The notes under the pieces were generated by a model. That model saw nothing but the letters and a program-made list of their open reading frames with translations, was not told the DNA's origin and did no database searches. From the NCBI GenBank assembly GCA_020152595.1, contig JAIGNY010001856.1, positions 956,501 to 1,020,500 of the forward strand: a stretch of 64,000 bases of DNA, written 5' to 3'. Each line of letters starts with the position of its first letter. Position 1 is the first letter of the stretch. Shown here in pieces: positions 3,698-56,875 of this stretch. Origin of the DNA: Chiridota heheva. Lineage: Eukaryota > Echinodermata > Holothuroidea > Apodida > Chiridotidae. A program made the position numbers and the translations under genes.

Positions 3698-3815
3698 TAA
3701 AACCTACTTGGAGAAGAGTGATTTCCATAGTCTCTGCAAGTCAGTTTTCCTTCCAACAGATGAGCTTACCCAGGAGCAGACCAACAAAGCGTTTCACCAT
3801 TTTAATAAAAAGAAG
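3698..3815 (+). CDS. Nicotinamidase exon: first EF-hand-region segment
   Basis: One base plus 39 codons, from KTYLEKSDFHSLC to FHHFNKKK, between acceptor TCTGACAG and donor AAG|GTAAGA. It corresponds to the Naam N-terminal EF-hand region: the first hand is reduced to its E-helix-like part, and the second loop starts at the final N-K-K-K. The frame was chosen by homology and by phase match with the next exon; the longer frame through this exon is a shadow. Confidence 0.88.
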
Positions 3816-6800
3816 GTAAGAAATGCAATGTAAGTGAGTGCTACGTAGTATATAGTACACGGACTGGACATTTGGGTCCCAACACTTATTATACTGTCAA
3901 CAACATTAAATGAATGTCTTTCTTCAGGGTTGGAGACTTATATAATTGAACCAACAATGCACCACACTGGTAAAGCTCACTGTACTAACAATGCACCACA
4001 CTGTTAAAGCTCACTGTACCAACAATGCATCACACCGGTAAAGCTCACTGTACCAACAATGCACCACACCGGTAAAGCTCACTGTACCAACAATGCACCC
4101 CACTGGTAAAGCTCACTGTACCAACAATGCACCACACCGGTAAAGCCACTGTACTAACAATGCACCGCACCGGTAAAGCTCACTGTACCAACAATGCACC
4201 ACACCGGTAAAGCTCACTGTACCAACAATGCACCCCACTGGTAAAGCTTACTGTACCAACAATGCACCACACCGGTAAAGCTCACTGTACCAACAATGCA
4301 CCCCACTGGTAAAGCTCACTGTACTAACAGTGCACCACACTGGTAAAGCTCACTGTACCAACAATGCACCCCACTGGTAAAGCTCACTGTACCAACAATG
4401 CATCACACCGTAAAGCTCACTGTACCAACAATGCACCACACCGGTAAAGCTCACTGTACTAACAGTGCACCACACTGGTAAAGCTCACTGTACCAACAAT
4501 GCACCCCACTGGTAAAGCTCACTGTACCAACAATGCATCACACCGGTAAAGCTCACTGTACCAACAATGCACCACACCGGTAAAGCTCACTGTACTAACA
4601 GTGCACCACACTGGTAAAGCTCACTGTACCAACAATGCACCCCACTGGTAAAGCTCACTGTACCAACAATGCATCACACCGGTAAAGCTCACTGTACCAA
4701 CAATGCACCCCACTGGTAAAGCTCACTGTACCAACAATGCACCCCACTGGTAAAGCTCACTGTACCAACAATGCATCACACCGGTAAAGCTCACTGTACC
4801 AACAATGCACCCCACTGGTAAAGCTCACTGTACCAACAATGCACCCCACTGGTAAAGCTCACTGTACCAACAATGCACCGCACCGGTAAAGCTCACTGTA
4901 CTAACAGTGCACCACACTGGTAAAGCTCACTGTACCAACAATGCACCCCACTGGTAAAGCTCACTGTACCAACAATGCACCGCACCGGTAAAGCTCACTG
5001 TACTAACAGTGCACCACACTGGTAAAGCTCACTGTACCAATGATGCACCACACTGGTAAAGCACACTGTACCAACAATGCACCACACCAGTAAAGCTCTT
5101 TGTACCAATAAAATGCACCACACCAGTAAAGCTCACTGTACTAACAATACACCACACCAGTAAAGCTCACTGTACCAACAATGCACCACACCAGTAAAGC
5201 TTCAGCTTTCTAATCTAGCATCTTCTGTAGATCTCCAACCAGTGCTTCACAATGTTCTGGTCAATAATTCGACAGTGGGTGTCTTGACAGATTATTCAGA
5301 ATTTTTCAATGAATATTGATATTGCTAAAGGTGGAACACCAGGTTCTGAAATAAAAATAGTTCCAGTTTACGTGCACATGTGATGTTGTACAGTATATTG
5401 ATTGTTCACTGAATCTGACTGAAGTGGACAGATGGTAATTCTTTAATGTCTTTCCCATGCTTTGACAGACCTGGACCAACACAGTTGGCATTTCACCATT
5501 GACAAATGAAAAATTACTACTGGCTGTCAAATGGCACTATCCAGTAGAAATAAAAAAAAATCAACATGTGAATGAGGTTCAACAATGAAAGAAGTTCAAC
5601 ATATGAACGAGGTTCAAGATATAGATGAGGTTCAACATATGAATGAGGTTCAACATATAAATGAGGTTCAACATATGAACGAGGTTCAACATATGAACGA
5701 GGTTCAACATATGAACGAGGTTCAACATATGAACGAGCTTCAACATATGAACGAGCTTCAACATATGAACGAGCTTCAACATATGAACGAGCTTCAACAT
5801 ATGAACGAGCTTCAACATATGAACGAGCTTCAACATATGAACGAGCTTCAACATATGAACGAGCTTCAACATATGAACGAGCTTCAACATATGAACGAGC
5901 TTCAACATATGAACGAGCTTCAACATATGAACGAGCTTCAACATATGAACGAGCTTCAACATATGAACGAGCTTCAACATATGAACGAGCTTCAACATAT
6001 GAACGAGCTTCAACATATGAATGAGGTTTTTGATTTGAGTTTGTCAGTAACATATCAGTCTATCTTCACTTACAATAATTGTCAAAATTTAAATTTCTGG
6101 GTAAGAAATTAAATTCTAGTGTAGGTATGCAAAGTTGTTTTATTTCCTTTCATAGGGTGATTGAAAACGAATTATTTGCTAATCTTCACCTAAATTTATG
6201 GCAAGCAAATATTTGTATTTGGGGACCAAATATTAAGGTCAACTGACTCAACTCGCCAACCGTGGGAGTGGGTGAAAAGATATTTGTCAAGGCCTGGAAT
6301 ATTAACAAGAATTAAAAATCTTAGGCAAAATGAGGTGTGCTTCTTCTGACTCATCTGGAAGGATTCGAAAACAGTAGGTTTACATAAGCAAGATTTTTAT
6401 CACAATTTTGTGTATTTTCCTGAACAATCATGTTTAGAAAGAAATCTTGAAATACTCTTATTTTGACAATCACACGTCTGATTTGTTTCATATTCAGTAT
6501 AATTATGTTGTTAGCCAGTGTGTACGTGTTCATTATATTAAAATCGTTTGATATCATTAATATGCATATTGGGTGGGGCTTAATATGATTTAGCTAAAAA
6601 GAGCTTGTAATATCTGAAGATCGATATCCATTTTTATGTCATATGTGGTACACAGATAGTCCATGGTCTGTAGATGTGCCATACTGATTTTGGTGGTGAT
6701 GTCATGCATATCAATTAGTGCTTAACTAATGGTGTTTCATTTTGAAATCTTCAAATGCTCATATTTTAACAATTACCTCCGCTTTGTTTGATATGTGGTA

Positions 6801-9800: not shown

Positions 9801-12800
9801 CCCTCAGTGGGAACGCATCTAACACACCCTCAGTGGGAACGCATCTAACACACCCTCAGTGGGAACGCATCTAACACACCCTCAGTGGGAACGCATCTAA
9901 CACACCCTCAGTGGGAATGCATCTAACACACCCTCAGTGGGGCATCTAACACACCCTCAGTGGGAACGATCTAACACACCCTCAGTGGGAACGCATCTAA
10001 CACACCCTCAGTGGGAACCCATCTAACACATCTAACACACCCTCAGTGGGAACGTATCTAACACACCCTCAGTGGGAATGCATCTAACACACCCTCAGTG
10101 GGAATGCATCTAACACACCCTCAGTGGGAATGCATCTAACACACCCTCAGTGGGAACGCATCTAACACACCCTCAGTGGGAACGCATCTAACACACCCTC
10201 AGTGGGAATGCATCTAACACACCCTCAGTGGGAACGCATCTAACACACCCTCAGTGGGAACGCATCTAACACACCCTCAGTGGGAACGCATCTAACACAC
10301 CCTCAGTGGGAATGCATCAGTGGGAACACACACCCTCAGTGGGAATGCATCTAACACACCCTCAGTGGGAACGCATCTAACACACCCTCAGTGGGAACGT
10401 ATCTAACACACCCTCAGTGGGAACGCATCTAACACACCCTCAATGGTCGCATCTAACACACCCTCAGTAGGAACGTATCTAACACACCCTCAGTGGGAAC
10501 GCATCTAACACACCCTCAATGGGAACGCATCTAACACACCCTCAGTGGGAACGTATCTAACACACCCTCAGTAGGAACGCATCTAACACACCCTCAATGG
10601 GAACGCATCTAACACATCCTGGGTGGGAATGCATTCAACACATCCTCGGTGAGAATGCATTCAACACATCCTCAGTGGGAATGCATTCAACACATCTTCA
10701 TTGAGAACACATTCATGAATGTGTTGATCAACACATCTTCAGTGGGATTGCATTCAACACATCCTCAGTGGGAACGCATCTAACACACCCTCAGTAGGAA
10801 CGCATCTAACACACCCTCAGTGGGAACGCATCTAACACACCCTCAATGGGAACGCATCTAACACACCCTCAGTGGGAACGTATCTAACACACCCTCAGTG
10901 GGAACGCATCTAACACACCCTCAATGGGAACGCATCTAACACACCCTCAGTGGGAACGTATCTAACACACCCTCAGTAGGAACGCATCTAACACACCCTC
11001 AGTGGGAACGCATCTAACACACCCTCAATGGGAACGCATCTAACACACCCTCAGTGGGAACGTATCTAACACACCCTCAGTGGGAACGCATCTAACACAC
11101 CCTCAATGGGAACGCATCTAACACACCCTCAGTGGGAACGTATCTAACACACCCTCAGTAGGAACGCATCTAACACACCCTCAGTGGGAACGCATCTAAC
11201 ACACCCTCAGTGGGAACGCATCTAACACACCCTCAATGGGAACGCATCTAACACACCCTCAGTGGGAACGTATCTAACACATCCTCAGTGGGATATCGCA
11301 TTCAATACATTCTCAGTGGGAACACATTCAACACATCCTCAGTGAGAATGCATTCAACTCATCCTCAGTGGGAATGCATTCAACACATCCTGGGTGGGAA
11401 TGCATTCAACACATCCTCGGTGAGAATGCATTCAACACATCCTCAGTGGGAATGCATTCAACACATCCTCAGTGGGAATGCATTCAACACATCTTCATTG
11501 AGAACACATTCATGAATGTGTTGATCAACACATCTTCAGTGGGATTGCATTCAACACATCCTCAGTGGGAACACATTCAACACATCCTCAGTGGGAACGC
11601 ATTCAACACATCCTCAGTGGAAACGCATTAAACACATCCTTAGTGAAACACATTTAACACATCCTCAGTGGGAGCGCATTCAACACATCTTCAGTGATAA
11701 CGCATTCAACACATCCTCAGTGGGAAGGCATTCAACACATCCTCAGTGGAAACGCATTAAACACATCCTCAGCGGGAACACATTCAACATATCTTCAGTG
11801 GGAACGCATTCAACACATCCTCAGTGGGAACACATTCAACACATCCTCAGTAGGAACACATTCAACACATTCTCAGTGGGAATGCATTCAACACATCCTC
11901 TAGGAATGCATTCAACACATCCTCAGTGAGAACGCATTTAACACATCCTCAGTGGGAATACATTCAACGCATCCTCCACATCCTCAGTGGGAATGCGTTC
12001 AACACATCCTCAGTGGGAACGCATTCCACACATCCTCAGTGGGATCGAATTTAACACATCTTTATTAGGAACGCATACATTATATGTGTTCAGGTTGAGA
12101 GTGTAGTACTAGATTGCTTTCATCTGTATAGTTATATCATTGCAGCTGCCTTATTCATGTGGACCTCACTAATCTAAATTGTTCGCTTATTCAAACCGCT
12201 CAAGTCAAAATCATACATAGTTCTCATGAAGCGCTTTTCTATGCTCAATGTGTACTCAAATGCTTTACAATGGAAACTCTTTTCTATGCTCAATGTGTAC
12301 TCAAATGCTTTACAATGGAAACTCTTTTCTATGCTCATTGTGTACTCAAATGCTTTACAATGGAAACTCTTTTCTATGTTCAATGTGTACTCAAATGCTT
12401 TACAATGGAAACTCTTTTCTATGTTCAATGTGTACTCAAATGCTTTACAATGGAAACGTTGGAGGCTCAAAGTTGCAGCAGTGCACAAGCCTGTACTATA
12501 GTCTAGTACTGTATTTGACTACTCAGATTGTTTTAGCTGTAGAAATGAATCTGTGCAACTTATTGAATGTTGTCTCTTGTTTGTTGTAGAATGGTAAACT
12601 GGACAAAGCTGAATTTGATGTTTGCTGCAAAGAATGGCTGGACAAGGTAATGAAGATCATAATTTACTATTCTATTGGCATGTAATCAGTGGCCTAGCTA
12701 GAGTTCGGAGCCCATGGGGAATTTAGTGCTTGGGCCCCATAACAATCATATCACAGTATCGTTGCTCAGTGCGACTTAAATTATGATTTTTGATTGGCCC

Positions 12801-15800
12801 GTAGGGTTTCCCACCCTATTGTTGCGTCACAGCTTGTAATGCCATGTCTGTAATATCCATTGTCCTTTAAATGAAGCATGGTGATTGGATGTTGGAATCT
12901 GTGGCAATGCCATCCATCTCTTTATAATCACATAGTCACATTTGACTATTCACGGTTGGAACCTACAATCCTGGACAAAATTAGTTGTCGCATTTTTAAG
13001 CCCCTTCTACCCCGCCTCAATGTTGGAGTTGAAGAGGACCATCCGGGGACGTTTTCGTTTCAAGCGACATTGAAATGGGGCACAGGGGAAAAAGTGTGAC
13101 AACTATTTTGTCCAAGATTGTAGCTTTGTAATGGTCAGGGGATTGTAAACGTTTAGAATCATGCATAGTCTGTTGGTTTGTTTGTCAAAGAAGATGTTTT
13201 TGAAAGCAATTACCCGTCAACTTGGTTTATCTGGTGTGTTGCACTTGTTGGCATGTGTGTTTGTATGATGCATGCTGGGATATGTGTGTTTGTATTATGT
13301 ATGCTGGGATTATTCTAAAGGACCTCCTTCAGCATTTCTGAGCAGAAACAATATGAAGATTTTTTTTTTTTTTTTCCCTATACTAGTGTCAGTAATTAAG
13401 CAGGTCATTCTGGTATACGTGCATTGGATTTAAAATGCATAATGAAATCTGGAAGATTAACTTACATTTTATTTTTTTAAAAGAAGAGAATTTGTGCTCA
13501 CAAGCTGTTGCAACCTTTAACCAATTCTTAAGGTTTGTCCCGAAATCTTATATGAATAATAACCCTTCCTTTCCATCAGGCTGCCACTTTCTACCATGGC
13601 ATTTTAAAGTTTTATTATTTCATGTTTGAAATTATATTTTTAAATCATAACATGTTGGTGTGATTGTTAGATTAGGTGACAATATGATAATGATATATTT
13701 TACTTTTCAGATCCTCTAGTTTCCTTCCAAAGAGGAGAATAACTCATTTGTTGTTATACCTTACAGTCCACCATCCATTTGAAATAAGGAAGAAACACGC
13801 TACATAACCAAACAGTGCAGGATTACCAAGTAAAAAAAAAAAGTATTTGGTGGCTTTTTTGATAAGCAGTTTTAAAGGATAAACGCTTAACTCTCTGCAG
13901 GATCTATATTTGCCTTGCGTTAGTTATTTGCTTTGTGAAATGTCTTTGTTTGCACTAATCATATTAGCTGAAAGAATTAAGTGTTAGATATCATGTATGA
14001 TGTCGGTAATGATCATATCAGCTGAAAGAATTAAGTGTTAGATATCATGTATGGTGTCGGTAATGATCATATCAGCTGAAAGAATTAAGTGTTAGATATC
14101 ATGTATGGTGTCTGTAATGATCATATTAGCTGAAAGAATTAAGTGTTAGATATCATGTATAATGGTGTAGCTGAAAGAATTAAAGATGTCATGTATGGTG
14201 TCGGTAAGATGTTGGTGTAATGATCATATTAGCTGAAAGAATTAAGTGTTAGATATCATGTATGGTGTCGGTAATGATCATATTAGCTGAAAGAATTAAG
14301 TGTTAGATGTCATGTATGGTGTTGGTAATGATCATATTAGCTGAAAGAATTAAGTGTTAGATATCATGATGGTGTCGGTAATGATCATATTAGCTGAAAG
14401 AATTAAGTGTTAGATATCATGTATGGTGTCGGTAATGATCATATTAGCTGAAAGAATTAAGTGTTAGATATCATGTATGGTGTCGGTAATGATCATATTA
14501 GCTGAAAGAATTAGGTGTTAGATATCATGTATGGTGTCGGTAATGATCATATTAGCTGAAAGAATTAGGTGTTAGATATCATGTATGGTGTCGGTAATGA
14601 TCATATTAGCTGAAAGAATTAAGTGTTAGATATCATGTATGGTGTCGGTAATGATCATATTAGCTGAAAGAATTAAGTGTTAGATATCATGTATGGTGTC
14701 GGTAATGATCATATTAGCTGAAAGAATTAAGTGTTAGATATCATGTATGGTGTCGGTAATGATCATATTAGCTGAAAGAATTAAGTGTTAGATATCATGT
14801 ATGGTGTCGGTAATGATCATATTAGCTGAAAGAATTAAGTGTTAGATATCATGTATGGTGTCGGTAATGATCATATTAGCTGAAAGAATTAAGTGTTAGA
14901 TGTCATGTATGGTGTCGGTAATGATCATATTAGCTGAAAGAATTAAGTGTTAGATATCATGTATGGTGTCGGTAATGATCATATTAGCTGAAAGAATTAA
15001 GTGTTAGATATCATGTATGGTGTCGGTAATGATCATATTAGCTGAAAGAATTAAGTGTTAGATATCATGTATGGTGTCGGTAATGATCATATTAGCTGAA
15101 AGAATTAAGTGTTAGATGTCATGTATGGTGTCGGTAATGATCATATTAGCTGAAAGAATTAAGTGTTAGATATCATGTATGGTGTCGGTAATGATCATAT
15201 TAGCTGAAAGAATTAAGTGTTAGATATCATGTATGGTGTCGGTAATGATCATATTAGCTGAAAGAATTAAGTGTTAGATATCATGTATGGTGTCGGTAAT
15301 GATCATATTAGCTGAAAGAATTAAGTGTTAGATATCATGTATGGTGTCGGTAATGATCATATCAGCTGAAAGAATTAAGTGTTAGATGTCATGTATGGTG
15401 TCGGTAATGATGATATCAGCTGAAAGAATTAAGTGTTAGATATCATGTATGGTGTCGGTAATGATCATATTAGCTGAAAGAATTAAGTGTTAGATATCAT
15501 GTATGGTGTTGGTAATGATCATATTAGCTGAAAGAATTAAGTGTTAGATATCATGTATGGTGTCGGTAATGATCATATTAGCTGAAAGAATTAAGTGTTA
15601 GATATCATGTATGGTGTCGGTAATGATCATATTAGCTGAAAGAATTAAGTGTTAGATATCATGTATGGTGTCGGTAATGATCATATTAGCTGAAAGAATT
15701 AGGTGTTAGATATCATGTATGGTGTCGGTAATGATCATATTAGCTGAAAGAATTAAGTGTTAGATATCATGTATGGTGTCGGTAATGATCATATTAGCTG

Positions 15801-36800: not shown

Positions 36801-39800
36801 TGACCTCATTTAAACTTTTCTTCTTGTTTTTGACACAGAACAAAGCAGAAAATGTACAGCCATTCCAAGATGTGATTTTTGCAAGAAGTCCATCAGTACC
36901 ACAAACACTATGGCCTGCTCATTGTATCCAACATTCAGAGGGAGCCAAGTTTCATCCAGACCTAAAGGTAAGGTGTTTGCAGTGCTTCTGGTATATGTCT
37001 ATGTCGCATAGCTCTAAAGGTAAGGTGTTTACAGTGCTTCTGGTATGTCTATGTTGCATAGCTCTAAAGGTAAGGTGTTTACAGTGCTTCTGGTATATGT
37101 CTATGTCTCATAGCTCTAAAGGTAAGGTGTTTACAGTGCTTCTGGTATATGTCTGTCTCATAGCTCTAAAGGTAAGGTGTTTACAGTGCTTCTGGTATGT
37201 CTATGTCGCATAGCTCTAAAGGTAAGGTATTTACAGTGCTTCTGGTATATGTCTATGTCGCATAGCTCTAAAGGTAAGGTGTTCACAGTGCTTCTGGTAT
37301 ATGTCTATGTTGCATAGCTCTAAAGGTAAGGTGTTCACAGTGCTTCTGGTATGTCTATGTCGCATAGCTCTGAAGGTAAGGTGTTTACAGTGCTTCTGGT
37401 ATATGTCTATGTCGCATAGCTCTAAAGGTAAGGTGTTCACAGTGCTTCTGGTATATGTCTATGTCTCATAGCTCTAAAGGTAAGGTGTTTACAGTGCTTC
37501 TGGTGTATGTCTATGTCACATAGCTGTAAAGGTAAGGTGTTTACAGTGCTTCTGGTATATGTCTATGTCACATAGCTCTAAAGGTAAGGTGTTTACAGTG
37601 CTTCTGGTATATGTCTATGTCTCATAGCTCTAAAGGTAAGGTGTTCACAGTGCTTCTGGTATATGTCTATGTTGCATAGCTCTAAAGGTAAGGTGTTCAC
37701 AGTGCTTCTGGTATATGTCTATGTCACATAGCTCTAAAGGTAAGGTGTTTACAGTGCTTCTGGTATATGTCTATGTCGCATAGCTCTGAAGGTAAGGTGT
37801 TTACAGTGCTTCTGGTATATGTCTATGTCGCATAGCTCTAAAGGTAAGGTGTTTACAGTGCTTCTGGTATGTCTATGTCTCAGCTCTAAAGGTAAGGTGT
37901 TTACAGTGCTTCTGGTATATGTCTATGTCGCATAGCTCTAAAGGTAAGGTGTTTACAGTGCTTCTGGTATGTCTATGTCTCATAGCTCTAAAGGTAAGGT
38001 GTTTGCAGTGCTTCTGGTATATGTCTATGTCGCATAGCTCTAAAGGTAAGGTGTTTACAGTGCTTCTGGTATATGTCTATGTCGCATAGCTCTCCATAGA
38101 TCAAAAGAGTTTTAAAATGTGAATTAGTTAGTTGTTGAAAATAGCACTTATAATTTTCGTTATAGTTTCACTTTATACTAAATTGTGATGTGTGACTGGA
38201 CAGACAGCTTAATTTTTTTGAATGTAATTCGTTAAAATTCTGTCCGAAATTTCAGTTACAGAAAATGATGACGAAGTCTATTCCTGCTAGAATTTGATTT
38301 TGGATATGGTAAAGACCGAAAAACATTCGTCAAAATTGGATGAAATCTCTCATTGAAAGACAAAGATTTACATAAGAAACTACAAATGCCACCCTGTACA
38401 CATGTTGGATAGAAACTACAATACCACCCTGTACCCATGTTGCATAGAAACTACAAATGCCACCCTGTAACACATGTTGCATAGAAACTACAAATGCCAC
38501 CCTGCAAGACATGCTGCATAGCAACTACAAATGCCACCCAGTAACACATGTTGCATAGCAACTACAAATGCCACCTTGTAAAACATGTTGCATAGAAACT
38601 ACAAATGCCACCCAGTAACACATGCTGCATAGAAACTACAAATGCCACCCTGTAACACATGTTGCATAGAAACTACAAATGCCACCCTGTCACACATGTT
38701 GCATAACAACTACAAATGCCACCCTGTAAGACATGTTGCATAGAAACTACAAATGCCACCCAGTAACACATGCTGCATAGAAACTATAAGTGCCACCCTG
38801 TAACACATATTGCATAGAAACTATAAGTGCCACCCTGTAACCCATGTTGCATAGAAACTACAAATGCCACCCTGTAACACATGTTGAATAGAAACTACAA
38901 ATGCCACCCTGTAACTCATGTTGCATAGAAACTACATATGCCACCCTGTAACACATGTTGCATAGAAACTACTAATGCCACCTGTAACACATGCTGCATA
39001 GAAACTACAAATGCCACCCTGTAACACATGCTGCATAGAAAGTACAAATGCCACCCTGTAACACATGCTGCATAGAAAGTACAAATGCCACCTTGTAATA
39101 CATGCTGCATAGAAACTACAAATGCCACCCTGTAACACATGCTGCATATAAACTACAAATGCCACCCTGTAACACATGCTGCATAGAAACTACAAATGCC
39201 ACCCTGTAACACATGCTGCATAGAAACTACAAATGCCACCCTGTAACACATGCTGCATGGAAACTACAAATGCCACCCTGTAACACATGTTGCATAGAAA
39301 CTACAAATGCCACCCTGTAACACATGTTGCATAGAAAGTACAAATGCCACCCTGTAACACATGCTGCATAGAAAGTACAAATGCCACCCTGTAACACATG
39401 CTGCATAGAAAGTACAAATGCCACCTTGTAATACATGCTGCATAGAAACTACAAATGCCACCCTGTAACACATGCTGCATATAAACTACAAATGCCACCC
39501 TGTAACACATGCTGCATAGAAACTACAAATGCCACCCTGTAACACATGCTGCATAGAAACTACAAATTCCACCCCGTAACACATGTTGCATAGAAACTAC
39601 AAATGCCACCCTGTAACACATGTTGCATAGAAACTACAAATGCCACCCTGTAAGACATGTTGCATAGAAACTACAAATGCCACCCTGTAACACATGTTGC
39701 ATAGAAACTACAAATGCCACCGTGTAACACATGTTGCATAGAAACTACAAATGCCACCTTGTAACACATGTTGCATAGAAACTACAAATGCCACCCTGTA

Positions 39801-42800
39801 ACACATCTTGCATAGAAACTACAAATGCCACCTTGTAACACATGTTGCATAGAAACTACAAATGCCACCCTGTAACACATGTTGCATATAAACTACAAAT
39901 GCCACCGTGTAACACATGTTGCATAGAAACTGCAAATGCCACCCTGTAACACATGTTGCATAGAAACTACAAATGCCACCCTGTAACACATGTTGCATAG
40001 AAACTACAAATGCCACCCTGTAACACATGTTGCATAGAAACTACAAATGCCACCCTGTAACACATGTTGCATAGAAACTACAAATGCCACCGTGTAACAC
40101 ATGTTGCATAGAAACTACAAATGCCACCCTGTAACACATGTTGCATAGAAACTACAAATGCCACCATGTAACACATGTTGCATAGAAACTACAAATGCCA
40201 CCGTGTAACACATGTTGCATAGAAACTACAAATGCCACCCTGTAACACATGTTGCATAGCAACTACAACTGCCACCCTGTAACACATGCTGCATAGAAAC
40301 TACAAATGCCACCCTGTAACACATGCTGCATAGAAACTACAAATGCCACCCTGTAACACATCTTGCATAGAAACTACAAATGCCACCCTGTAACACATGT
40401 TGCATAGAAACTACAAAAGCCACCTTGTAACACATGTTGCATAGCAACTATAAATGCCACCCTGTAGCACATGTTGCATATAAACTACAAATGCCACCGT
40501 GTAACACATGTTGCATAGAGACTGCAAATGCCACCCTGTAACACATGTAGCATAGAAACTACAAATGCCACCCTGTAACACATGTTGCATAGAAACTTCA
40601 AATGCCACCTTGTAACACATGTTGCATAGAAACTACAAATGCCACCCTGTAACACATGTTGCATAGAAACTACAAATGCCACCCTGTAACACATGTTGCA
40701 TAGAAACTACAAATGCCACCGTGTAACACTTGTTGCATAGAAACTACAAATGCCACCGTGTAACACTTGTTGCGTATTCTGTGAGCTAATGTTTTCTCTA
40801 GAAATCAAAGAAACAACTCATAGACTTTCCCACCAAAAATGGTCAACTTTTGACATCAAATAAAATTCATTTGAAGAAACTTGTTCTTCTTTACACATGT
40901 TGTCTTACTTTCCCAGGTTCAAACCATATCTAGTAAGTTTTTACCACATCTCACCATTTATTCAGCCCTTTCCTCTCTCACTTGATTGGTTTACATTATT
41001 GGTGTTTGTCAGATATTGCCCCTCTCACTTGATTGGTTTATGCCATTGGTGTTTGTCAGATATTGCCCCTCTCACTTGATTGGTTTGCACCATTGGTGTT
41101 TGTCAGATATTGCCCCTCTCACATCATTGGTTTGCACCATTGGTGTTTGTCAGATATTGCCCCTCTCACTTGATTGGTTTGCACCATTGGTGTTTGTCAG
41201 ATATTGCCCGTCTCACTTGATTGGTTTGCACCATTGGTGTTTGTCAGATATTGCCCCTCTCACTTGATTGGTTTGCACCATTGGTGTTTGTCAGATATTG
41301 CCCCTCTCACTTGATTGGTTTGACTGGTGTTTGGTTTACACCATTGGTGTTTGTCAGATATTGCCCCTCTCACTTGATTGGTTTGCACCATTGGTGTTTG
41401 TCAGATATTTCCCCTCTCACTTGATTGGTTTGCACCATTGGTGTTTGTCAGATATTGCCCCTCTCACATCATTGGTTTGCACCATTGGTGTTTGTCAGAT
41501 ATTCCCCCTCTCACATCATTGGTTTGCACCATTGGTGTTTGTCAGATATTGCCCCTCTCACTTGATTGGTTTGCACCATTGGTGTTTGTCAGATATTGCC
41601 CCTCTCACTTGATTGGTTTGCACCATTGGTGTTTGTCAGATTTTGCCCCTCTCACTTGATTGGTTTGCACCATTGGTGTTTGTTAGATTTTGCCCCTCTC
41701 ACTTGATTGGTTTGCACCATTGGTGTTTGTTAGATATAACCTTTCTGACATTATTGACCTAAGACATTTGATGTATCACATAACTACACGATCCTGAGGA
41801 GCAGAAAAACGAGTAGACTACAAGATTCCTGATGCTTTGGTACACAAGGACATAACTGGTGTTGCGGTGGTAATCCACTTCTATAAAAGTGTTTCATTTA
41901 TAAAAACCATGTAAGTTTAAAATTTGTATTCCAAGTTTGTCCTTCTTTTTTGTTGTAGGTGGTGGATAAAGCGCTGATAATTCACAAAGGCTCTAACCCC
42001 AATGTTGACAGTTACTCCACATTCTTTGACAATGAGGAGGGGCATGAAACAAAATTAAGGACAGAATTACAAAATCTGGGCATTACAGATGTGATTCTTG
42101 CTGGTCTGGCATTTGATATATGTGTTAAGTTCAGTGCTCTGGATGCAAGGAAAGTGGGTTTTGGTTGTATGGTGATTACGGATGCATCTGGGACCGTCAG
42201 AGAAGATGGGCAGGCCGAAGCAGAGAGAGAACTCTCAAGAGAAGAACTGCTTTATTGCTAAAGCTAATGAGGTGAGCTTGCATTTTTAACCTTTATCTGA
42301 CCACACTCAGAAAGAGGGCCTGCCCTTCTCTAAATTTCAGTCCAAGAAGGGTTTACAAGCTTATTAAATTAGAAAATGTAATTAAATTCAGAAATTGAGT
42401 TTTGTAGGGATGGGAACGGTTGGTAAGCTTGAGTACAAGGTGGTGTCGTAGGGGTACACACTTGGGATGGAAAGTGTAGCTGGGTGTAGAGAGCAGGTTA
42501 ATGCAGTCTATGATCAGGAAGGATGGATAAAGATAAGCACACTGATGGTAGGAAGTGTTAGGGATGGTAGGTGGATGGGGGTTGATAGGGTTGAATTTCT
42601 CAATTGAATTTTTGTTTGTTTGTTCCGAGAACAGTGCTTTTTACGCAGGAACACTATATTTTCAACCATGAATGTGGCATCAATGATCGTATGACTTGAT
42701 TTCTTTGAAATAAGTACATGTTGTGAAACAGGATTATCATAAAAAGAATTTCTTCCAGAAAGAAAAAGCTTTCCCCACCTTGCCTGCAATTGTTAGCACA

Positions 42801-45800
42801 ATTGATAACTATAATTTTAGCACTCTGTGGAGTGCATACCTCAACCCAATTGATCATACCAATATGCCTATCTACCTATTGCCTAAAATTTAATAAAGTT
42901 TACCCCCATACCCAATACAAACTATCTCAGAAATCCTAGACCCACTAAATTTTATCCCCAAATCTGTTCCTCATTTTAAAGCAGCATTTGCTATTTGCAT
43001 CCTATACACTTCAGGGTTTTCTACCAGTCATTGTTTTCAGTTTCATTTAGGCTGAGCATTTATTGTTTGAGTGCTTTTTAGGAAGATTCACATTCCATGC
43101 TTTTCCATTCCTGCCACAAAAAAATAAATAAACTTCGCTGGCAGAGGTAATGGTAGGTTGGCGTTCATGTCCTCTTGAAGGATTTTGCCGACTTAACCGA
43201 TTTAAATACACTGATGTGCAGCACACTGGCATGCAGCACACTGGCATGCAGCACACTGGCATGCAGCACACTGGCATGCAGCACACTGGCATGCAGCACA
43301 CTGGCATGCAGCACACTGGCATGCAGCACACTGGCATGCAGTACACTGGCATGCAGTACACCGGCATGCAGTACACCGGCATGCAGTACACCGGCATGCA
43401 GTACACCGGCATGCAGTACACCGGCATGCAGTACACCGGCATGCAGTACACTGGCATGCAGCACACTGGCATGCAGCACACTGGCATGCAGCACACTGGC
43501 ATGCAGCACACTGGCATGCAGCACACTGGCATGCAGCACACTGGCATGCAGCACACTGGCATGCAGCACACTGGCATGCAGCACACTGGCATGCAGCACA
43601 CTGGCATGCAGCACACTGGCATGCAGCACACTGGCATGCAGCACACTGGCATGCAGCACACTGGCATGCAGCACACTGGCATGCAGCACACTGGCATGCA
43701 GCACACTGGCATGCAGCACACTGGCATGCAGCACACTGGCATGCAGCACACTGGCATGCAGCACACTGGCATGCAGCACACTGGCATGCAGCACACTGGC
43801 ATGCAGCACACTGGCATGCAGCACACTGGCATGCTGCACACTGGCATGCAGCACACTGGCATGCAGTATGCGAGACTGCACTTGTGAAATTAATGAATGA
43901 CATCTTATGGAATATAGAGAACCAAAAGGTGACGCTTTTACTAGCTATCGACCTTAGCGCGGCCTGATACCGTGGACCATGCCATTTTTATTGAAGGTCC
44001 TGTTTGCAAAGTATGGTCCAAGGGGCAAGGCGTTATACTGCTTCGAGAACTATTTAAGACCTAGGGACTGTATTATCAATGTTGGCGTAAAGTATTCAAG
44101 TCGGCATATGCTTAAAATCTCAGTCCCACAAGGGAGCTCTACTGGACCAGTTTTGTACTCGAGTTGCGCTAGTACACTGCAAGACGTAATTTCTGATGGA
44201 GTTGATTTACATGCTTTCGTAGATGATCATACCTTTAAGTTGGCCTACGATCCTAATACTACATTAGGAAAGAGTGACTCCATCCATATCCTTGAAAATC
44301 TGTGTACAGATATTAAACAATGGATGGACGCAAACAGGCTGAAAATGAATAATCTAAAACAGAGTTTGTTCAATTGGGGTCCAGAAGGCAAATATCAAAA
44401 TAAAAAATTGATGTAATCAGTATTAATGGGGAATGCGTTAGAAAATCAAATCAAATGAAATACCTTGGAATGTGGGCGGATGGTCAGATGTCTTTAAGAG
44501 ACACATTGCAGAAAAATGTAAAATTGCAATGTGGGGCATATACAAAATCAAACAAATTTGCCAGAACCTTACGCAGGATGCTTGCGCCACACTCATGTTT
44601 GGGGTTAGTGCTGTCACACATAGACTATGTAAATGCAATCTTTATAGGACTTCTGGAGTGTGAATTGAACAAACTTCAGAGGGTACAAAATATTGTGGCC
44701 AAAGCAGTTCTGGACAAACAAAAATATCATAGCAGTAAGGAATGCCTTAAAATCTTACACTGGCTTCCAGTCAAATTGAGAATCAGCATAAGGTTTACCT
44801 TAGTGTACAAGTGTGTAAATAACCAGGCACCAAATTACTTGAAAGATCAATTAATCGATATACCTAATAGACGGAATACCAGGTCTACTACCTCATATAA
44901 AAAGTTATTTGACCATTTACCAAACTTAACACATTTGCTGGTCATTCTTTTAGTGTAGTGGGACTGACATGGTGGAATGACCTACCAGATTATATTAAAC
45001 TTGCTCAGTCAGTAAATGTTTTAAACATCATTTAAAGACTTACCTTTTCAATCAATTTTAATGGTATCTCCTGTTTTGTTTGTTTTGTATGTGTTGGTCC
45101 CATTGCACTGCATTCTTGTTTAGTCATTGTGTTGATGTTTTATTTGTAAAGTGCCACTAAAGATTGCCAGATTGAAGTGTGCGTTATATGAATTGATGGA
45201 TTAGGATAAGAATTATGTATTGTTCCATGGAACAGTGGCAAAAAATGTAAATTACGACTTAGTTGAAGGTGAATGGTAAGTGAATGCTGGATGTTAGGTG
45301 AACAGGGTATGGTGCAATAGGTAAATGGAGAATGATAGGTTGATGATGTAAGGCTGTGTAGGGTGAATGGGTTGGACTAAGCCTGCCTGGTAGAGAAGGA
45401 CTTGGGAATGATAGATTTAGGGGAGACGATGATGATGGGGCATGATGAGTGGAAGATCAAGTGGAAATTGAATGCTAGAAAGAGAAAATTAATCTATCTA
45501 AATTATTTTAAATACTCTTTGTTTAATTATTGAGGTGGGGTATAACATGCAGGCCATTTGTTCATGTATTTGATATTCTTTACAGTGAAACAAATATTTT
45601 CCTTGAAATGCATAATGAAATCTTTTGAAAGTTCAAGTATTACATCATGATTACTTTTTAACACATCGATGAAAACTTTGAAATAAACGAAATAAGATAT
45701 CAACATGTTGTTTCTCTGATAGTCCTCTACCATGTAATGCAAAACTAACAAATACAGAAAGTTTCCTTTTTATCAATATCTAATTGTTGTGCTTCAGCAG

Positions 45801-48170
45801 GACAGCAAGGGGCATGCATTTTGTATGACTTCCCACCCAATCCGAAGAATGGTGAAGCTTTCAAAAGCCTAAAGTTGGTTGAAAAATTAAGCATTCAAAA
45901 GTAGCTGTAATATAATTTTGTAACACATAATACCGACGTTACCGCTTTGAATGCTTAACTACTCAGAAGCAGTGCAATACTATTATAGTGTTGGTGAAAA
46001 TTGCAGACACTTGTAGGCTTTTTCCATGGCTAATCATTTGTATTTTTGGAGAGGAAACTTTTGAAAATGGCCTATATGAAATGCAAACAAAAAAGGTGCC
46101 TTTGTTTAATAGGGTGTATTCCATAAATTGGTTTGTAGGCAGGGCGAACTTATTAGTTGTGTTACCCCCTTTTCTGCATAAATGCTAAACTGCCTTTAAT
46201 TTTCCGTCTCTTGCTGCTCAAGTCCGATATGCCAAGTCCGTAATTCAATTGAAAGTATATTGTAACTTAGTTGTCAGTCAGAGTGAACGGGACGTTTGTA
46301 TGCGGCCAAATTTTGTGACATCCAATCCCAATCGAAACGACAGAAAAGTACTAAAACAATGTCAGACCATATCTGTAAAACTTGGTTAAACATGCATAGA
46401 ATTAAACCTTTTTAATTGTGGGACCGGCTTTTGGTCCCACAACTTCAAAAATTAGTCCCACCTTTATTGGTGTGTATTCATCAGTTGGTCCAACAATTGT
46501 TGTGAAGGTGAGTACAAACACACGGACAGACGCAATTATCACATTTTGTTCTGTTCCAAAAACTTGTGACCCCTAACCCTTAAAATGAGGTCAACATATT
46601 AGACCCTCTGGTGGGCCCACCATACCCCATAATATCAACGGGGTGGCCATGTAGTGTAGGAGATACGGGCAGTTCTTTGCCAAACAGCAAAGTGACTACA
46701 ATATCTCATCCCCACATATATGTACATGTGGGTAATGAGATACAAGAAAGCAATCCATGGAGTTGCTGATCTCATCACCTTAAGCATACAGCATAGTGGG
46801 AGAAATAGCTAACAAGAAAGCAATCCATGGGGTTGCTGATCTCATCACCTTAAGCATACAGCATAGTGGGAGAAATAGCTAACAAGAAAGCAATCCATGG
46901 AGTTGCTGATCTCATCACCTTAAGCATACAGCATAGTGGGGAAATAGCTAACAGGAAAACAATCCATGGAGTTGCTGATCCCATCACCTTAAGCATACAG
47001 CATAGTGGGAGAAATAGCTAACAAGAAAGCAATCCATGGAGTTACTGATTTCATCACCTTAAGCATACAGCATAGTGGGAGAAATAGCTAACAGGTCACC
47101 ATAGCTCTGTGACTTTTGATGGATTGCACTGCCCATGCAAGCTGAGTAAAAGCAGATGTTGAGACAGGCTTGACCATCTTTCTGGGACATCTGACCTCTG
47201 ATATTGACCTTTTTTTATCATTTTCCTTATAGTGATGGAATGGTAAGTGTGACATGAGCATGTTTCATACAGTAGGGTATAATAAACGTGAACAATTTCA
47301 GAGTTATTTCAGTGATTAGGGTCAAGGGTCAGATGTTACCTTGGTACATGAATGTGTCCCGTAGACTATGGGGTCAAAAGGTCAAAGAGCTATTGACTTT
47401 TTTCACCATTTCCCCCTATAGTTATGGAATAGTGAGGGTGACGTGAGCATGATTGGTGTCATACAGTAGGATATGATAAATGTGAAAAAGGTCAGAAGTT
47501 ATTTCAGTGATCATTGTCAAATATGTGATTTTAGGGGTATAATTTTGTGCTAATTTGTACAATTTGTGTACCACTTTAAATCCGAAAGTGCAAGACCTAT
47601 ACCAAACCCTATGTTGTACCATGATATCTTGGTACATGAATTTGTGTCCCCGTAGACTCTGGGATCAAAAGGTCGAAGGTCTGTTTGTACTCCCATGGGC
47701 AGTACAATCCATGAACATGCCTAAAGAAAGATAGCTATTTCCCCCACTATGCTGTACACTTAAGGTGATGAGATCAGCAACTCCATGGATTGCTTTCTTG
47801 TTAGTTATTTCCCCCACTATGCTGTACACTAAGGGTAATGTGATTAGCAACTCCATGGATTGCTTTCTTGTTAGGTATTTCCCCTGTATGCTGTACACTT
47901 AAGATTATGAGATCAGCAACTCCATGGATTGCTTTCCTGTTAGCTATTTCCCCCACTATGCTGTATGCTTAAGGTAATAAGATCAGTAACTCAATGGATT
48001 GCTTTCTTGTTAGCTATTTCCCCCACTATGCTGTATGCTTAAGGTAATGAGATCAGCAACTCCATGGATTGCTTTCTTATTTTATATTTTTCTTTATCAT
48101 GTTACAGGTGAAAGCAGTAGTTGAAAGGAAGGTCCGCTATCCCTTTTTTGCATTCTCTGACTTCTCCTAA
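3698..48170 (+). CDS. Nicotinamidase with N-terminal EF-hand region (Naam-like), complete gene span
   Basis: The enzyme hydrolyses nicotinamide to nicotinate and ammonia, the first step of NAD salvage in animals that use the Preiss-Handler route. Coding exons: 3698-3815, 12590-12646, 31287-31393, 32341-32455, 36839-36967, 41959-42271 and 48108-48170. All have GT-AG borders and matching phases except the frame error in the sixth. Counting from the first whole codon, about 58 residues form an EF-hand-like region, followed by an isochorismatase-fold domain. The catalytic triad is D70 (in IVDVQNDF), K185 (in IIHKGS) and C230 (in AFDICV). Metal ligands are D109, H111 and H115 (in QDWHPSDH) and H160 (in WPAHC). 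These match the PncA family, and the EF-hand fusion matches Drosophila Naam. Introns total about 44 kb and are dominated by tandem arrays. The start codon is uncertain and the end is disturbed by a frameshift. Confidence 0.93.
3949..5202. repeat. 34-bp minisatellite, about 37 copies
   Basis: Unit contains ACCAACAATGCACCACAC and GGTAAAGCTCACTGT with common C/A and T/C variants (CACCGG against CACTGG, CACCCC against CACCAC). Private to the intron 3816-12589 and begins 133 bases after the exon. Many units carry CTGGTAAAGC or CCGGTAAAGC, a weak 5' splice-site-like string. Confidence 0.97.
5561..6028. repeat. 18-bp minisatellite, about 26 copies
   Basis: Unit AACATATGAACGAGCTTC; earlier units at the left edge carry GAGGTTC in place of GAGCTTC. 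The length is a multiple of three, so four of the six frames stay open over the array. These open frames (such as LQHMNE repeats) are by-products of the unit and not evidence of a gene. Confidence 0.97.
6340..9440. repeat. Cluster of a dispersed repeat of about 280 bp in direct and inverted copies
   Basis: A motif set recurs: GGGGCTTAATATGATTTTGC, AAGAGCTTGTAA, ACACAGATAGTCCATGGTCT and ATGCATATTAATGA. Forward copies start near 6560, 6845, 8745, 9025 and 9270. Reverse copies lie near 7845, 8010 and 8260. An inverted pair, CAGAACCAAACGGTTTTGTG at 7591 and its complement at about 9145-9164, flanks the reverse block. No coding capacity. It looks like a non-autonomous, foldback-prone element inside the intron 3816-12589. 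Confidence 0.75.
9555..12088. repeat. 26-bp minisatellite, about 97 copies, two subfamilies
   Basis: Subfamily A has CACCCTCAGTGGGAACGCAT followed by CTAACA; subfamily B has CATCCTCAGTGGGAATGCAT followed by TCAACA. A fills about 9580-10610 and 10770-11280; B fills 10611-10769 and 11281-12088. The interleaving reflects a duplicated block (see findings). Confidence 0.97.
12234..12458. repeat. 45-bp minisatellite, exactly 5 copies
   Basis: Unit begins CTTTTCTATGCTCAATGTGT and ends TTTACAATGGAAACT. Sits 131 bases before the EF-hand exon at 12590. The unit length is a multiple of three, which explains the open frames on both strands. Confidence 0.96.
12590..12646 (+). CDS. Nicotinamidase exon: second half of the EF-hand loop
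   Basis: 19 codons, NGKLDKAEFDVCCKEWLDK, between acceptor TTGTTGTAG and donor AAG|GTAATG. Together with the N-K-K-K of the previous exon it makes a 12-position EF loop with G at position 6, L at 8 and E at 12. Positions 1 and 3 are N and K instead of D, so calcium binding is doubtful. An intron of 8.8 kb splits the loop between positions 4 and 5. Confidence 0.9.
12647..13950. other. Intron sequence before the giant satellite
   Basis: No exon or retroelement recognised. A pair of imperfect direct repeats with TGTGTGTTTGTAT and ATGCTGGGAT lies at about 13254-13312. Poly-T at about 13361-13375 and poly-A at about 13832-13842. Confidence 0.45.
13951..26477. repeat. Giant 54-bp satellite, about 232 copies
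   Basis: Unit core: TTAGATATCATGTATGGTGT, CGGTAATGATCATATTAGCT, GAAAGAATTAAGTG. Almost all units are exactly 54 bp and differ at a few positions (ATATC/ATGTC, ATTAG/ATCAG, TTAAG/TTAGG, ATGTATGG/ATGTTCGG). It fills two thirds of the intron 12647-31286. Rare variants recur at fixed offsets, showing higher-order duplication. Each unit contains the palindrome ATGATCAT and most contain GATATC. No open frame of note. Uninterrupted by any transposon. Confidence 0.99.
26478..27014. other. Intron sequence between satellite and LINE copy
   Basis: AT-rich, no recognised gene or repeat unit. Confidence 0.4.
27015..28622 (+). mobile_element. CR1/L2-like non-LTR retrotransposon, internally deleted copy
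   Basis: Open segments in successive frames give the linker before reverse transcriptase (27022-27240), then LNDYFVSAFTKESL and SNKAPGPDGIHPAVLRE (RT blocks 1-2, about 27306-27540). A jump follows to SQRVVVNGKVSPWKK, and then GVPQGSVLGPLLFLIFINDI and KFADDTKLYR (catalytic DD) to about 28043. The C-terminal part, ILGLTTLELRRV, follows to about 28334 and a final domain to about 28530. The RT palm part holding the first catalytic Asp (FQKAFDKV in the sister copy at 54895-56060) is deleted around 27540. There are stops and at least two frameshifts. The 3' UTR has GGGCTTTTTATGGGGTGACT and a TTATGTTATATTATT tail. Dead copy inside the nicotinamidase intron. Confidence 0.9.
28793..29549. mobile_element. 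Non-autonomous element with 11-bp terminal inverted repeats
   Basis: Ends are ATCTCATCACC at 28793-28803 and GGTGATGAGAT at 29539-29549, exact inverse complements. The interior contains GGGGATGAGATATTGTAG, a CA/TG-rich stretch near 29010, and no coding capacity. The left third reappears inverted at 46430-46740 and the right end appears as the 70-bp units of the foldback element at 46743-48079, so the two belong to one family. The boundary choice is inference; no clear target-site duplication was identified. Confidence 0.6.
29628..30330. repeat. 102-bp minisatellite, about 7 copies
   Basis: Unit contains CACATGTACATCACATGACC, TTTGTAATGGGGTTAAATGT, GTCATGTGACTCTAATTGCT. The length is a multiple of three, leaving a 267-codon open frame (29564-30367) that is a by-product. 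Each unit has several CANNTG E-box words; one unit has the perfect palindrome GTCACGTGAC at 29883-29892. Confidence 0.95.
30756..31013. repeat. 35-bp minisatellite, about 7 copies
   Basis: Unit TGGTCCTGACTTTAGGGTAG followed by CTGCCAGGAGGTCCA. Lies about 270 bases before the catalytic-Asp exon at 31287. Confidence 0.95.
31287..31393 (+). CDS. Nicotinamidase exon: catalytic Asp
   Basis: 35 codons plus two bases, between acceptor TTGACAG and donor AACAG|GTGAGA. Encodes VLNPKTAFLIVDVQNDFITG, the first strand of the isochorismatase fold. The first Asp of VDVQNDF (D70) is the general acid/base of the Asp-Lys-Cys triad. The rest, SLQVNNGAAVVPVIN, matches the family's glycine-rich start of helix 1. 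An internal CTACAG|GTGAAT could act as an alternative donor, but homology supports reading through it. Confidence 0.95.
31681..31817. repeat. 33-bp short tandem repeat, about 4 diverged copies
   Basis: Units contain CCCGTTCCTAGCTTTATTGT or GATGGTTCTACGGC-type variants. Lies in the short intron 31394-32340 and differs from every other array in the gene. Confidence 0.8.
32341..32455 (+). CDS. Nicotinamidase exon: metal-binding loop
   Basis: One base (completing Arg with the previous exon) plus 38 codons, between acceptor TTTTCCAG and donor CCA|GTAAGA. Encodes LLDTVKFDAIVYTQDWHPSD followed by HISFHCNV. D109, H111 and H115 are the family's divalent-metal ligands. The tail MREIHCCSP corresponds to the variable loop before the next exon in Naam-type enzymes. 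Confidence 0.95.
32511..36456. repeat. 46-bp minisatellite with tRNA-like and AP-1-like text, about 86 copies
   Basis: Consensus in pieces: GGTTGCTCAGCAGGTAGAGT, GCATGACTCAGATGATGAAG, ATTCAA. The string GCTCAGCAGGTAGAG matches the D-arm and A-box region of a tRNA (compare AGCTCAGTTGGTAGAGC). Some units, such as the one at 32610, have a perfect D-stem GCTC/GAGC. GATTCAAGG weakly resembles a B-box. TGACTCA, the exact AP-1 site, is in most units of 32511-34440 and 35930-36400. Middle units (34450-35920) carry GATTGATATGATTAAG instead. Fills nearly all of the intron 32456-36838. Confidence 0.97.
36457..36838. other. Intron end before the H160 exon
   Basis: Unique-looking sequence with no repeat unit. 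Ends in a pyrimidine tract and TTTTTGACACAG acceptor. Confidence 0.5.
36839..36967 (+). CDS. Nicotinamidase exon: fourth metal ligand and substrate loop
   Basis: 43 codons between acceptor GACACAG and donor CTAAAG|GTAAGG. Encodes NKAENVQPFQDVIF and then SVPQTLWPAHCIQHSEGAKF and HPDLK. The His of WPAHC (H160) is the last metal ligand; WP.HC.......F is a hallmark of PncA nicotinamidases. The last bases of the exon and the donor are the seed of the 52-bp array that follows. Confidence 0.95.
36962..38093. repeat. 52-bp minisatellite that repeats the exon's 5' splice site, about 21 copies
   Basis: Unit in pieces: CTAAAGGTAAGGTGTTTACA, GTGCTTCTGGTATATGTCTA, TGTCGCATAGCT. It begins inside the exon (CTAAAG) and runs over the real donor, so each unit presents AAAG|GTAAGG, an 8-of-9 match to the donor consensus. 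Some units are 50 bp (one AT less). Small variants: GTCGC, GTCTC, GTTGC, GTCAC. Confidence 0.97.
38375..40776. repeat. 37-bp minisatellite, about 65 copies
   Basis: Unit in pieces: AGAAACTACAAATGCCACCC, TGTAACACATGTTGCAT. Positions vary mainly as CATGTTG/CATGCTG, ACTAC/AGTAC and CACCCTG/CACCGTG/CACCTTG. The minus-strand frames cycle through three phases per 111 bases and give repeated 69-residue open frames without coding meaning. Confidence 0.97.
40973..41737. repeat. 47-bp minisatellite, about 16 copies
   Basis: Unit in pieces: CTCTCACTTGATTGGTTTGC, ACCATTGGTGTTTGTCAGAT, ATTGCCC. A partial duplication interrupts it near 41318-41340. Three units carry ACATCATTGG in place of ACTTGATTGG. Third array in the intron 36968-41958. 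Confidence 0.97.
41959..42271 (+). CDS. Nicotinamidase exon: catalytic Lys and Cys, with frame error near the end
   Basis: Begins at acceptor TTGTTGTAG and ends at donor AATGAG|GTGAGC, 313 bases where 312 would keep phase. Encodes VVDKALIIHKGSNPNVDSYS with catalytic Lys (K185), then LGITDVILAGLAFDICVKFS with catalytic Cys (C230) and VGFGCMVITDASG. The opened frame stops at 42259-42261. Shifting by one base in the GA-rich stretch around 42215-42240 gives EKNCFIAKANE up to the donor, which flows in phase into VKAVVE of the last exon, as expected from Naam. So there is a one-base insertion or two-base loss: a real truncating allele or an assembly error. All catalytic residues precede it. Confidence 0.93.
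42272..43212. other. Intron sequence before the 15-bp array
   Basis: G-rich runs such as GATGGTAGGTGGATGGGGGT near 42560. No exon or known element recognised. 43150-43212 directly precedes the array and may be retroelement-derived. Confidence 0.4.
43213..43868. repeat. 15-bp minisatellite, about 44 copies
   Basis: Unit ATGCAGCACACTGGC. A homogeneous block of the variant ATGCAGTACACCGGC, six copies, sits at about 43352-43441. With a unit of 15 and no stop in any phase, all six frames are open; none has a gene-like context. The array ends directly against LINE coding sequence. Confidence 0.98.
43869..45065 (+). mobile_element. Second CR1/L2-like non-LTR retrotransposon family, 5'-truncated and decayed
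   Basis: Directly after the 15-bp array the third frame reads CETALVKLMNDILWNIENQK and LLLAIDLSAA (RT palm), with two bases missing before DTVDHA. It continues as LKVLFAKYG, SVPQGSSTGPVLYSS, and FVDDHTFKL, where the catalytic YADD-like box is FVDD. A stop and frameshift at 44416-44455 follow, then MKYLGMWADGQMSL, a C-terminal domain, and, after another frameshift near 44940, WWNDLPDYIKLAQSVNVF to about 45060. It is a different family from the 27015 element. Located in the last intron of the nicotinamidase gene. Confidence 0.88.
45066..46425. other. Intron sequence between LINE and foldback element
   Basis: Probably includes the LINE 3' UTR with GGTGAATGGTAAGTGAATG-like text near 45270. No exon or tandem array seen. 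Confidence 0.4.
46743..47094 (-). repeat. Left arm: 70-bp unit, 5 copies
   Basis: Units start CAAGAAAGCAATCCATGGAG and contain GCATACAGCATAGTGGGAGA. They are the reverse complement of the right arm. Confidence 0.95.
47732..48079 (+). repeat. Right arm: 70-bp unit, 5 copies
   Basis: Units start AGCTATTTCCCCCACTATGC and contain GAGATCAGCAACTCCATGGA. Same copy number as the left arm. Confidence 0.95.
48108..48170 (+). CDS. Nicotinamidase last coding exon
   Basis: 20 codons, VKAVVERKVRYPFFAFSDFS, and a TAA stop at 48168-48170, after acceptor ATGTTACAG. The start VKA matches the Naam segment that follows the last helix. It is in phase with the previous exon only if the one-base error there is corrected. 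If the error is real, these codons are never translated in frame. Confidence 0.75.
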   Translation: MKAVVERKVRYPFFAFSDFS

Positions 48171-56870: not shown

Positions 56871-56875
56871 GACGT

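Follow-up and report, generated by a model that had tools for sequence, protein, structure and literature searches.

Tandem arrays of largely unlike units in the introns of a nicotinamidase gene of the holothuroid Chiridota heheva

Minisatellites located within genes have been described for amphioxus and human. In amphioxus, so-called mirages are minisatellites extending across exon-intron boundaries of the Adh3 and globin genes, with regular splicing reported to continue (PMC3087553). The human MUC2 gene contains nine tandem repeats within a region of 38.0 kb, seven of them intronic and two exonic, which were reported to be unique to the gene (PMC2065792). Human hTERT harbours minisatellites of 42 and 61 bp in intron 2, of 38 and 36 bp in intron 6 and of 28 bp in intron 12 (PMC2915984), and deletion of one TERT intronic minisatellite, VNTR6-1, changes splicing (PMC11830802). 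On the genomic scale, 21% of the Nothobranchius furzeri genome was reported to be tandem repeats, a large share of which represents a few abundant centromeric minisatellites (PMC2688266). The present study concerns a nicotinamidase gene of the holothuroid Chiridota heheva, located in a stretch of 64,000 bp (the window; contig JAIGNY010001856.1, here C1845:956501-1020500 of the 1.10-Gb assembly GCA_020152595.1 with 3744 contigs). The introns of this gene probably collected about 13 minisatellites independently, mostly through local births followed by lengthening, in a genome in which such arrays are common.

Tandem Repeats Finder returned fifteen arrays in the gene with units of 34, 18, 26, 45, 54, 102, 35, 33, 46, 52, 37, 47, 15 and 70 bp and 4.6-232 copies, comprising 13 unlike units and one 70-bp unit present twice in inverted orientation. 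Arrays occur in all six introns found:

3950..5201, + strand: 34-bp array, intron 1, 36.8 copies; related array on contig C486
5561..6025, + strand: 18-bp array, intron 1, 25.9 copies; related array on C2093
9566..12076, + strand: 26-bp array, intron 1, about 96 copies
12234..12457, + strand: 45-bp array, intron 1, 5 copies; unit pieces elsewhere
13958..26476, + strand: 54-bp array, intron 2, 232 copies, 12.5 kb
29627..30327, + strand: 102-bp array, intron 2, 6.9 copies
30753..31012, + strand: 35-bp array, intron 2, 7.4 copies
31666..31819, + strand: 33-bp array, intron 3, 4.6 degenerate copies
32509..36452, + strand: 46-bp array, intron 4, about 87 copies; relatives elsewhere
36962..38093, + strand: 52-bp array, exon 5/intron 5 boundary, 22 copies; donor AAG/GTAAGG in 22/22
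38375..40773, + strand: 37-bp array, intron 5, 65 copies; adjoins a dispersed element
40975..41737, + strand: 47-bp array, intron 5, about 16 copies
43217..43866, + strand: 15-bp array, intron 6, 43 copies; relatives on C3704, C2562 and C3442
46742..47093, + strand: 70-bp array, intron 6, 5 copies, dispersed unit
47732..48078, - strand: 70-bp array, inverted, intron 6, 5 copies; ends 29 bp before exon 7

Including a minor 61-bp repeat at 13253-13313, repeats occupy 27,736 of the 44,292 bp (62.6%) of region 3816..48107, in agreement with a first, sequence-only reading of the window, which had named at least 13 arrays of these unit lengths and estimated their share at about 27.6 kb of a gene of roughly 45 kb. 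With a strict array filter (period of at least 10, at least 3 copies, score of at least 120), arrays account for 62.1% of the 44,472-bp exon span. The array share amounts to 51% of intron 1, 72% of intron 2, 16% of intron 3, 89% of intron 4, 86% of intron 5 and 23% of intron 6. The 54-bp array contributes 45% of the array DNA, and coverage is still 47% without it. Beyond the exon span, the remaining 19.5 kb of the window retained a single array under the strict filter (0.6%), in line with the earlier impression of only two- to four-copy repeats and one irregular cluster outside the gene; counting an irregular cluster at 49.25-49.81 kb and two-copy repeats, the sum is 889 bp or 4.5%.

A chance origin of the arrays is ruled out by up to 232 copies at 96% matches. 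Head-to-tail units of 15-70 bp in 14 of the 15 arrays, and of 102 bp in the remaining one, correspond to the size of minisatellites (roughly 10-100 bp). Copies vary within arrays (41 distinct kinds among the 232 of the 54-bp array and 48 among the 87 of the 46-bp array), and in the 26-, 34-, 46- and 18-bp arrays one end or both carry more divergent copies, which is what turnover in place predicts. A scan of the window with Rfam yielded 0 families. The 46-bp unit (32509-36452) contains a stretch that by eye resembles a tRNA D-arm/A-box; a tRNA scan of 31800-36900 gave 0 genes.

Only the 70-bp pair has a common unit; all others differ from each other, sharing no more than words of 8-9 bases. Spread of one satellite, which would place a common unit at many sites, is thus not seen within the gene, just as the sequence-only reading had argued. 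Its further statement that no unit is common to two arrays applies to the 13 unlike units and fails for 46742-47093 and 47732-48078, which carry one 70-bp unit, facing opposite ways and separated by about 640 bp. Additionally, a lone piece of the 70-bp unit lies on the minus strand at 29505-29576 in intron 2, about 50 bp before the 102-bp array.

The units had also been considered private to the gene. Comparison with the rest of the genome, which covered the units other than that of 54 bp, revealed a mixed picture. A query with 46100-48107 produced 590 matches from 39 of 3607 candidates scored, and all matches listed pertain to the 70-bp arrays and adjoining sequence. The 70-bp unit is a dispersed repeat that forms arrays elsewhere too. 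In five fetched copies (L038-L042, 3.5-3.8 kb each, about 21 units in L038) it runs one way only, and the inverted pair is therefore not shown to be a structure of the element.

One query assembled from 13 units, with 22 of 24 candidates scored, detected arrays related to the 34-bp unit on C486 (76-79%), to the 18-bp unit on C2093 (77-87%) and to the 15-bp unit on C3704 and C2562 (80-90%, with a related match on C3442), next to pieces of the 45-bp unit at 12 other places, 10 of them with one piece each of about 40-53 bp. The 26-bp unit had no relative among these candidates, although the query recovered the window's own copies. Since the window was recovered for the 34-, 18-, 26-, 45- and 15-bp units only, absence of the other units from this search is not evidence. 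A second joined query (8 units, 1 of 3 candidates scored) recovered the window for none, and native queries were used instead. Relatives of the 46-bp unit (9 of 9 candidates scored) form arrays on C753 (72-77%, over 2.8 kb), C2496 and C1435; C3637 adds a longer match, and C2792 and C2098 contribute short pieces. The intron 5 query (40 of 1097 candidates scored) returned itself and 39 listed matches, all to a dispersed piece within 38135-38398, and no relative of the 52-bp array, the 47-bp array or most of the 37-bp array. For the 102-, 35- and 33-bp arrays, a query with 29540-31900 (263 matches, 40 of 244 candidates scored) gave, among the matches listed, no place other than the window. In total, at least five of the 14 units (70, 46, 34, 18 and 15 bp) have relatives elsewhere and are not confined to the gene; privacy is accordingly lost for these, qualified by dispersed pieces for the 45-bp unit, and retained, among the candidates scored, for the others searched.

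The dispersed element at 38135-38398, beside the 37-bp array, has at least 39 matches with copies 72-83% alike. In three of the 39 copies listed, similarity extends by 9-24 bases into the first unit of the 37-bp array, so that the element may have seeded it. A further piece at 30415-30518 shows about 76% similarity to the repeat unit of an array on C1994, which has a spacing of about 134 bp.

These relatives invite the explanation that the arrays arrived with mobile elements, each unit being an internal repeat of an inserted element. Such an origin fits the 70-bp arrays, which are dispersed as arrays at many places, and would also accommodate the 45-bp pieces (12 places, 10 single), the 46-bp relatives on six other contigs and the position of the 37-bp array next to a dispersed element. 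It is, however, unlikely to account for the gene as a whole, considering that no relative was encountered among the candidates scored for the 26-, 52-, 47-, 102-, 35- and 33-bp units and that similarities of 65-90% set the related arrays apart from fresh copies.

The genomic background was assessed with 20 random 10-kb stretches in the known part of 61 contigs (184,715 unmasked bases and 15,285 N), applying the same strict filter as for the gene. Overall, 35 arrays with periods of 14-124 bp were detected, corresponding to 1.89 per 10 kb and 7.4% coverage, with at least one array in 15 of the 20 stretches. The richest stretch contains 7 arrays with six periods at 29% coverage, two of the periods (24 and 48 bp) being related. 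For 31 of the 35 arrays no similar unit was present at another control stretch, some having a sister array in their own stretch; unlike arrays are therefore ordinary in this sample of the genome. A single unit family, of 24/48 bp, recurs in more than one control stretch, with 4 of the 35 arrays in L016, L025 and L028. No unit of the 35 control arrays resembles a unit of the gene. A further set of ten short loci, each anchored on one of two dispersed repeats, carries 5 arrays in 36.3 kb (9.3%); two other places of isochorismatase type (on C1305 and C94), sampled as three loci of which two overlap, contain 1 array in 9.5 kb.

The gene contains 15 arrays where the control predicts 8.4, a 1.8-fold excess per base (P 0.026 by Poisson, 0.058 by resampling of the control stretches); without the 70-bp pair, 13 arrays remain with a Poisson P of 0.087. 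Array length differs more strongly, with a median of 701 bp in the gene versus 240 bp in the control (P 0.0016; P 0.0011 without the 70-bp pair). Coverage is 8.4-fold that of the control, and four consecutive 10-kb bins from 3698 reach 0.45, 0.97, 0.51 and 0.75 versus a control maximum of 0.29. In 100,000 resamplings of the control, 44.5 kb never contained more than 12.0 kb of arrays, versus 27.6 kb in the gene. The locus is exceptional for the length of its arrays and less so for their number. According to the sequence-only reading, similar array density and diversity in most genes of the genome would render the locus ordinary; diversity is indeed similar (31 of 35 control arrays), density is not (bins of 0.45-0.97 against at most 0.29).

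The same reading had favoured a local process, such as slippage-prone replication or repair linked to transcription. A gene-specific instability of this kind, linked to transcription or replication and making the gene a hot spot of array birth and expansion, would explain why coverage is 62% versus 7.4%, why all four 10-kb bins exceed the top control, why the arrays are longer than those of the control (P 0.0016) and why merely one array (0.6%) is found in the 19.5 kb around the gene. It nevertheless appears quite improbable as a driver: similar arrays are present in 15 of 20 random stretches, array number is raised merely 1.8-fold (resampling P 0.058), and array clusters also occur in L016 and L031, both among the richest of the control stretches, in which a six-frame Pfam scan revealed no recognisable host exon, a result that is not proof of non-intron status (L031 contains reverse-transcriptase pieces, L016 one match below the cut-off). 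Moreover, the GC skew, taken on the coding strand, differs in sign among the arrays (e.g., +0.51 for the 54-bp and -0.38 for the 34-bp array), which speaks against a transcription-directed cause, as such a cause would be expected to favour one sign.

Independent local birth and subsequent lengthening in an array-rich genome is thus preferred as the explanation, and several points weigh against it. Four to six of the units have relatives elsewhere, and absence for others holds among the candidates scored. The control is small (184.7 kb), includes 15.3 kb of N and stems from 61 contigs known from repeat matches, and stretches of 10 kb cannot reveal arrays longer than 10 kb. The extremeness of the locus is in part a matter of selection, since the window was picked for its arrays from a large genome. 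Finally, a coverage of 62% lies far above the controls, so that a local cause of lengthening may be involved.

We infer that most arrays arose when a short local segment was duplicated in place, and that they were then lengthened by unequal exchange or slippage. Some seeds were apparently not unique DNA, as the 45-bp pieces are dispersed, the 37-bp array adjoins a dispersed element and the 70-bp arrays represent a dispersed repeat. One seed may have lain across a splice donor, resulting in the mirage-like array with 22 donors considered below.

The nicotinamidase gene is encoded on the + strand by seven exons of 901 bp in total across 3698-48169 (44,472 bp), with an incomplete 5' end; exon total and span were computed with 48169 as the end of exon 7, and the stop codon reaches 48170. 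The sequence-only reading was right in proposing a small enzyme gene with less than 1 kb of exons. Six exons have AG and GT borders, and the last exon has an AG border and a stop codon:

3698..3815, + strand: exon 1 (first seen; EF-hand-like N-terminal part); borders cag/TAAAAC and AAGAAG/gtaaga; starts mid-codon; 9u8m alignment from the 7th residue
12590..12646, + strand: exon 2, EF-hand-like segment NGKLDKAEFDVCCKEWLDK; splice borders, 9u8m alignment; EF-hand_6 match below cut-off
31287..31393, + strand: exon 3, start of the isochorismatase-type domain (IVDVQNDF); borders, 9u8m alignment, Pfam
32341..32455, + strand: exon 4 (DWHPSDHISF); borders, 9u8m alignment
36839..36967, + strand: exon 5 (WPAHCIQ), its last 6 bases being the first 6 of the 52-bp array; borders, 9u8m alignment
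41959..42271, + strand: exon 6 (IIHKGSNP, GLAFDICV); borders, 9u8m alignment; in-frame stop at 42259-42261
48108..48170, + strand: exon 7, probable last exon, VKAVVERKVRYPFFAFSDFS and stop codon at 48168-48170; splice acceptor, open frame

Before an in-frame stop is reached, exons 1-6 encode 275 residues, of which residues 7-254 are collinear with the solved nicotinamidase 9u8m (E 4.3e-66). The isochorismatase domain (PF00857) scores 83.9 bits versus a cut-off of 27; EF-hand_6 stays below its cut-off (17.1 versus 25 bits), and the segment aligns with the N-terminal part of 9u8m. The 5' end of the gene lies further upstream, since exon 1 starts mid-codon and the alignment begins at residue 36 of the 357-residue 9u8m chain; no exon was found upstream of 3698. 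The frame of exon 6 is not intact: a stop precedes the splice donor, and conserved-looking C-terminal residues are located in another frame that continues in exon 7. This frame break may reflect a sequence error, an allele or decay. Homology searches covered exons 1-6; the putative product of exon 7 resembles the C-terminal end of nicotinamidase in insects. Production of the enzyme presumably involves removal of the introns by splicing. A PF00857 profile search of the genome (6 of 6 candidates scored) found the gene once, plus the two isochorismatase-type places on C1305 and C94. Neither in this search nor with the DNA queries 41738-43200 (40 of 4129 candidates scored) and intron 5 (40 of 1097), which returned only the window itself and dispersed repeats, was a second haplotype or paralogue seen.

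The idea that the arrays fill the large introns holds in that each of the six introns found contains at least one; the 52-bp array, however, is not purely intronic, as it starts 6 bp inside exon 5. Its unit reads CTAAAG/GTAAGG..., the first copy consisting of the last 6 bases of exon 5 followed by the splice donor. As in a mirage, the array crosses the exon-intron boundary and repeats the splice signal. AAG/GTAAGG is invariant in 22 of 22 copies, and 27 donor-like sites (at least 7 matches) are present in this array, compared to 0 or 1 in each other array. When the frame of exon 5 is extended, donors 2-5 lie before the first stop and donors 6-22 past a stop; by computation, exon 5 would gain 34 residues in frame with donor 3 and 68 with donor 5, and use of donors 2 and 4 would shift the frame. 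Columns 19-30 of the unit are likewise invariant, the donor occupying columns 4-13. In view of this longer, equally invariant stretch, the constant donor is no sign of selection.

Whether the 22 donors act as a working splicing device, with copy number tuning enzyme output or adding in-frame repeats, must be regarded as very doubtful. Conservation of AAG/GTAAGG in every copy and the in-frame extensions offered by donors 3 and 5 would be compatible with such a function, as would two human cases. The title of a paper on an interferon-induced gene names a minisatellite with multiple splice donor sites. VNTR6-1 in TERT is reported to alter splicing (PMC11830802). Against a device stand the invariance of columns 19-30, which deprives the donor of any sign of selection, and the amphioxus mirages, reported without interference in regular splicing (PMC3087553). 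Very improbable as well is a wider proposal, according to which the domain drives any short duplication to great length, independently in every intron, and the row of 22 donors, variable in number, serves as a heritable splicing rheostat for nicotinamide recycling. An assembly artefact, by which the assembler inflated or misplaced arrays, can practically be dismissed: the frame break at the end of exon 6 indicates that the sequence may hold errors, but the window is free of N, single arrays comprise many distinct copies (41 kinds in 232, 48 in 87), and arrays occur in 15 of 20 random stretches as well.

Next to the arrays, the window contains two dispersed repeats, each with at least 39 other places: 463-1231 (about 770 bp, 86-90% identity in the main matches) and 42807-43120 (about 310 bp, 79-85% identity in the main matches). 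Three reverse-transcriptase-like remnants were delimited by eye, at 27022-28331 (no Pfam match in the tested part), 43958-44958 (RVT_1 below cut-off) and 56740-59335 (RVT_1 at 85 bits, the frame containing a 27-bp four-copy repeat).

Largely by array growth, a coding sequence of 0.9 kb has come to be spread over 45 kb. The locus separates array number, which is mildly raised versus the genome sample, from array length, which is strongly raised. Its splice-donor array offers a test bed for the choice of the spliceosome among 22 near-identical donors, as well as for the notion that new intron positions arise from minisatellites lying across exon-intron boundaries.

As MUC2 and TERT are already known to carry many minisatellites in one gene, the locus is regarded as an extreme case of a known phenomenon and not as a new process. 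Donor-bearing tandem units are reportedly also found in a human interferon-induced transcript, to judge from the 1995 title by Turri, Cuin and Porter, which names a minisatellite with multiple splice donor sites. The gene is 6-16/IFI6, and its unit of 12 bp is shorter than the present one. As in the amphioxus mirages, the 52-bp array takes in an exon end and the splice signal. The reported amphioxus units measure 10-72 bp (Adh3) or 150-160 bp (globin) and retain AG/GT in many but not all copies, in contrast to 52 bp and 22 of 22 copies here, and regular splicing was reported for them (PMC3087553). The presence of several minisatellites in one gene is shared with MUC2, some arrays of which are described as exonic and most as polymorphic (PMC2065792); here, an array is found in each of the six introns found, with a coverage of 62%. 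Several intronic minisatellites in one gene are likewise known from hTERT, for which polymorphism and an effect on splicing were shown (PMC2915984, PMC11830802). On the level of the genome, a few abundant repeats are described as a large share of the tandem repeats in Nothobranchius furzeri (PMC2688266), while the sampled stretches of C. heheva contain many unlike arrays.

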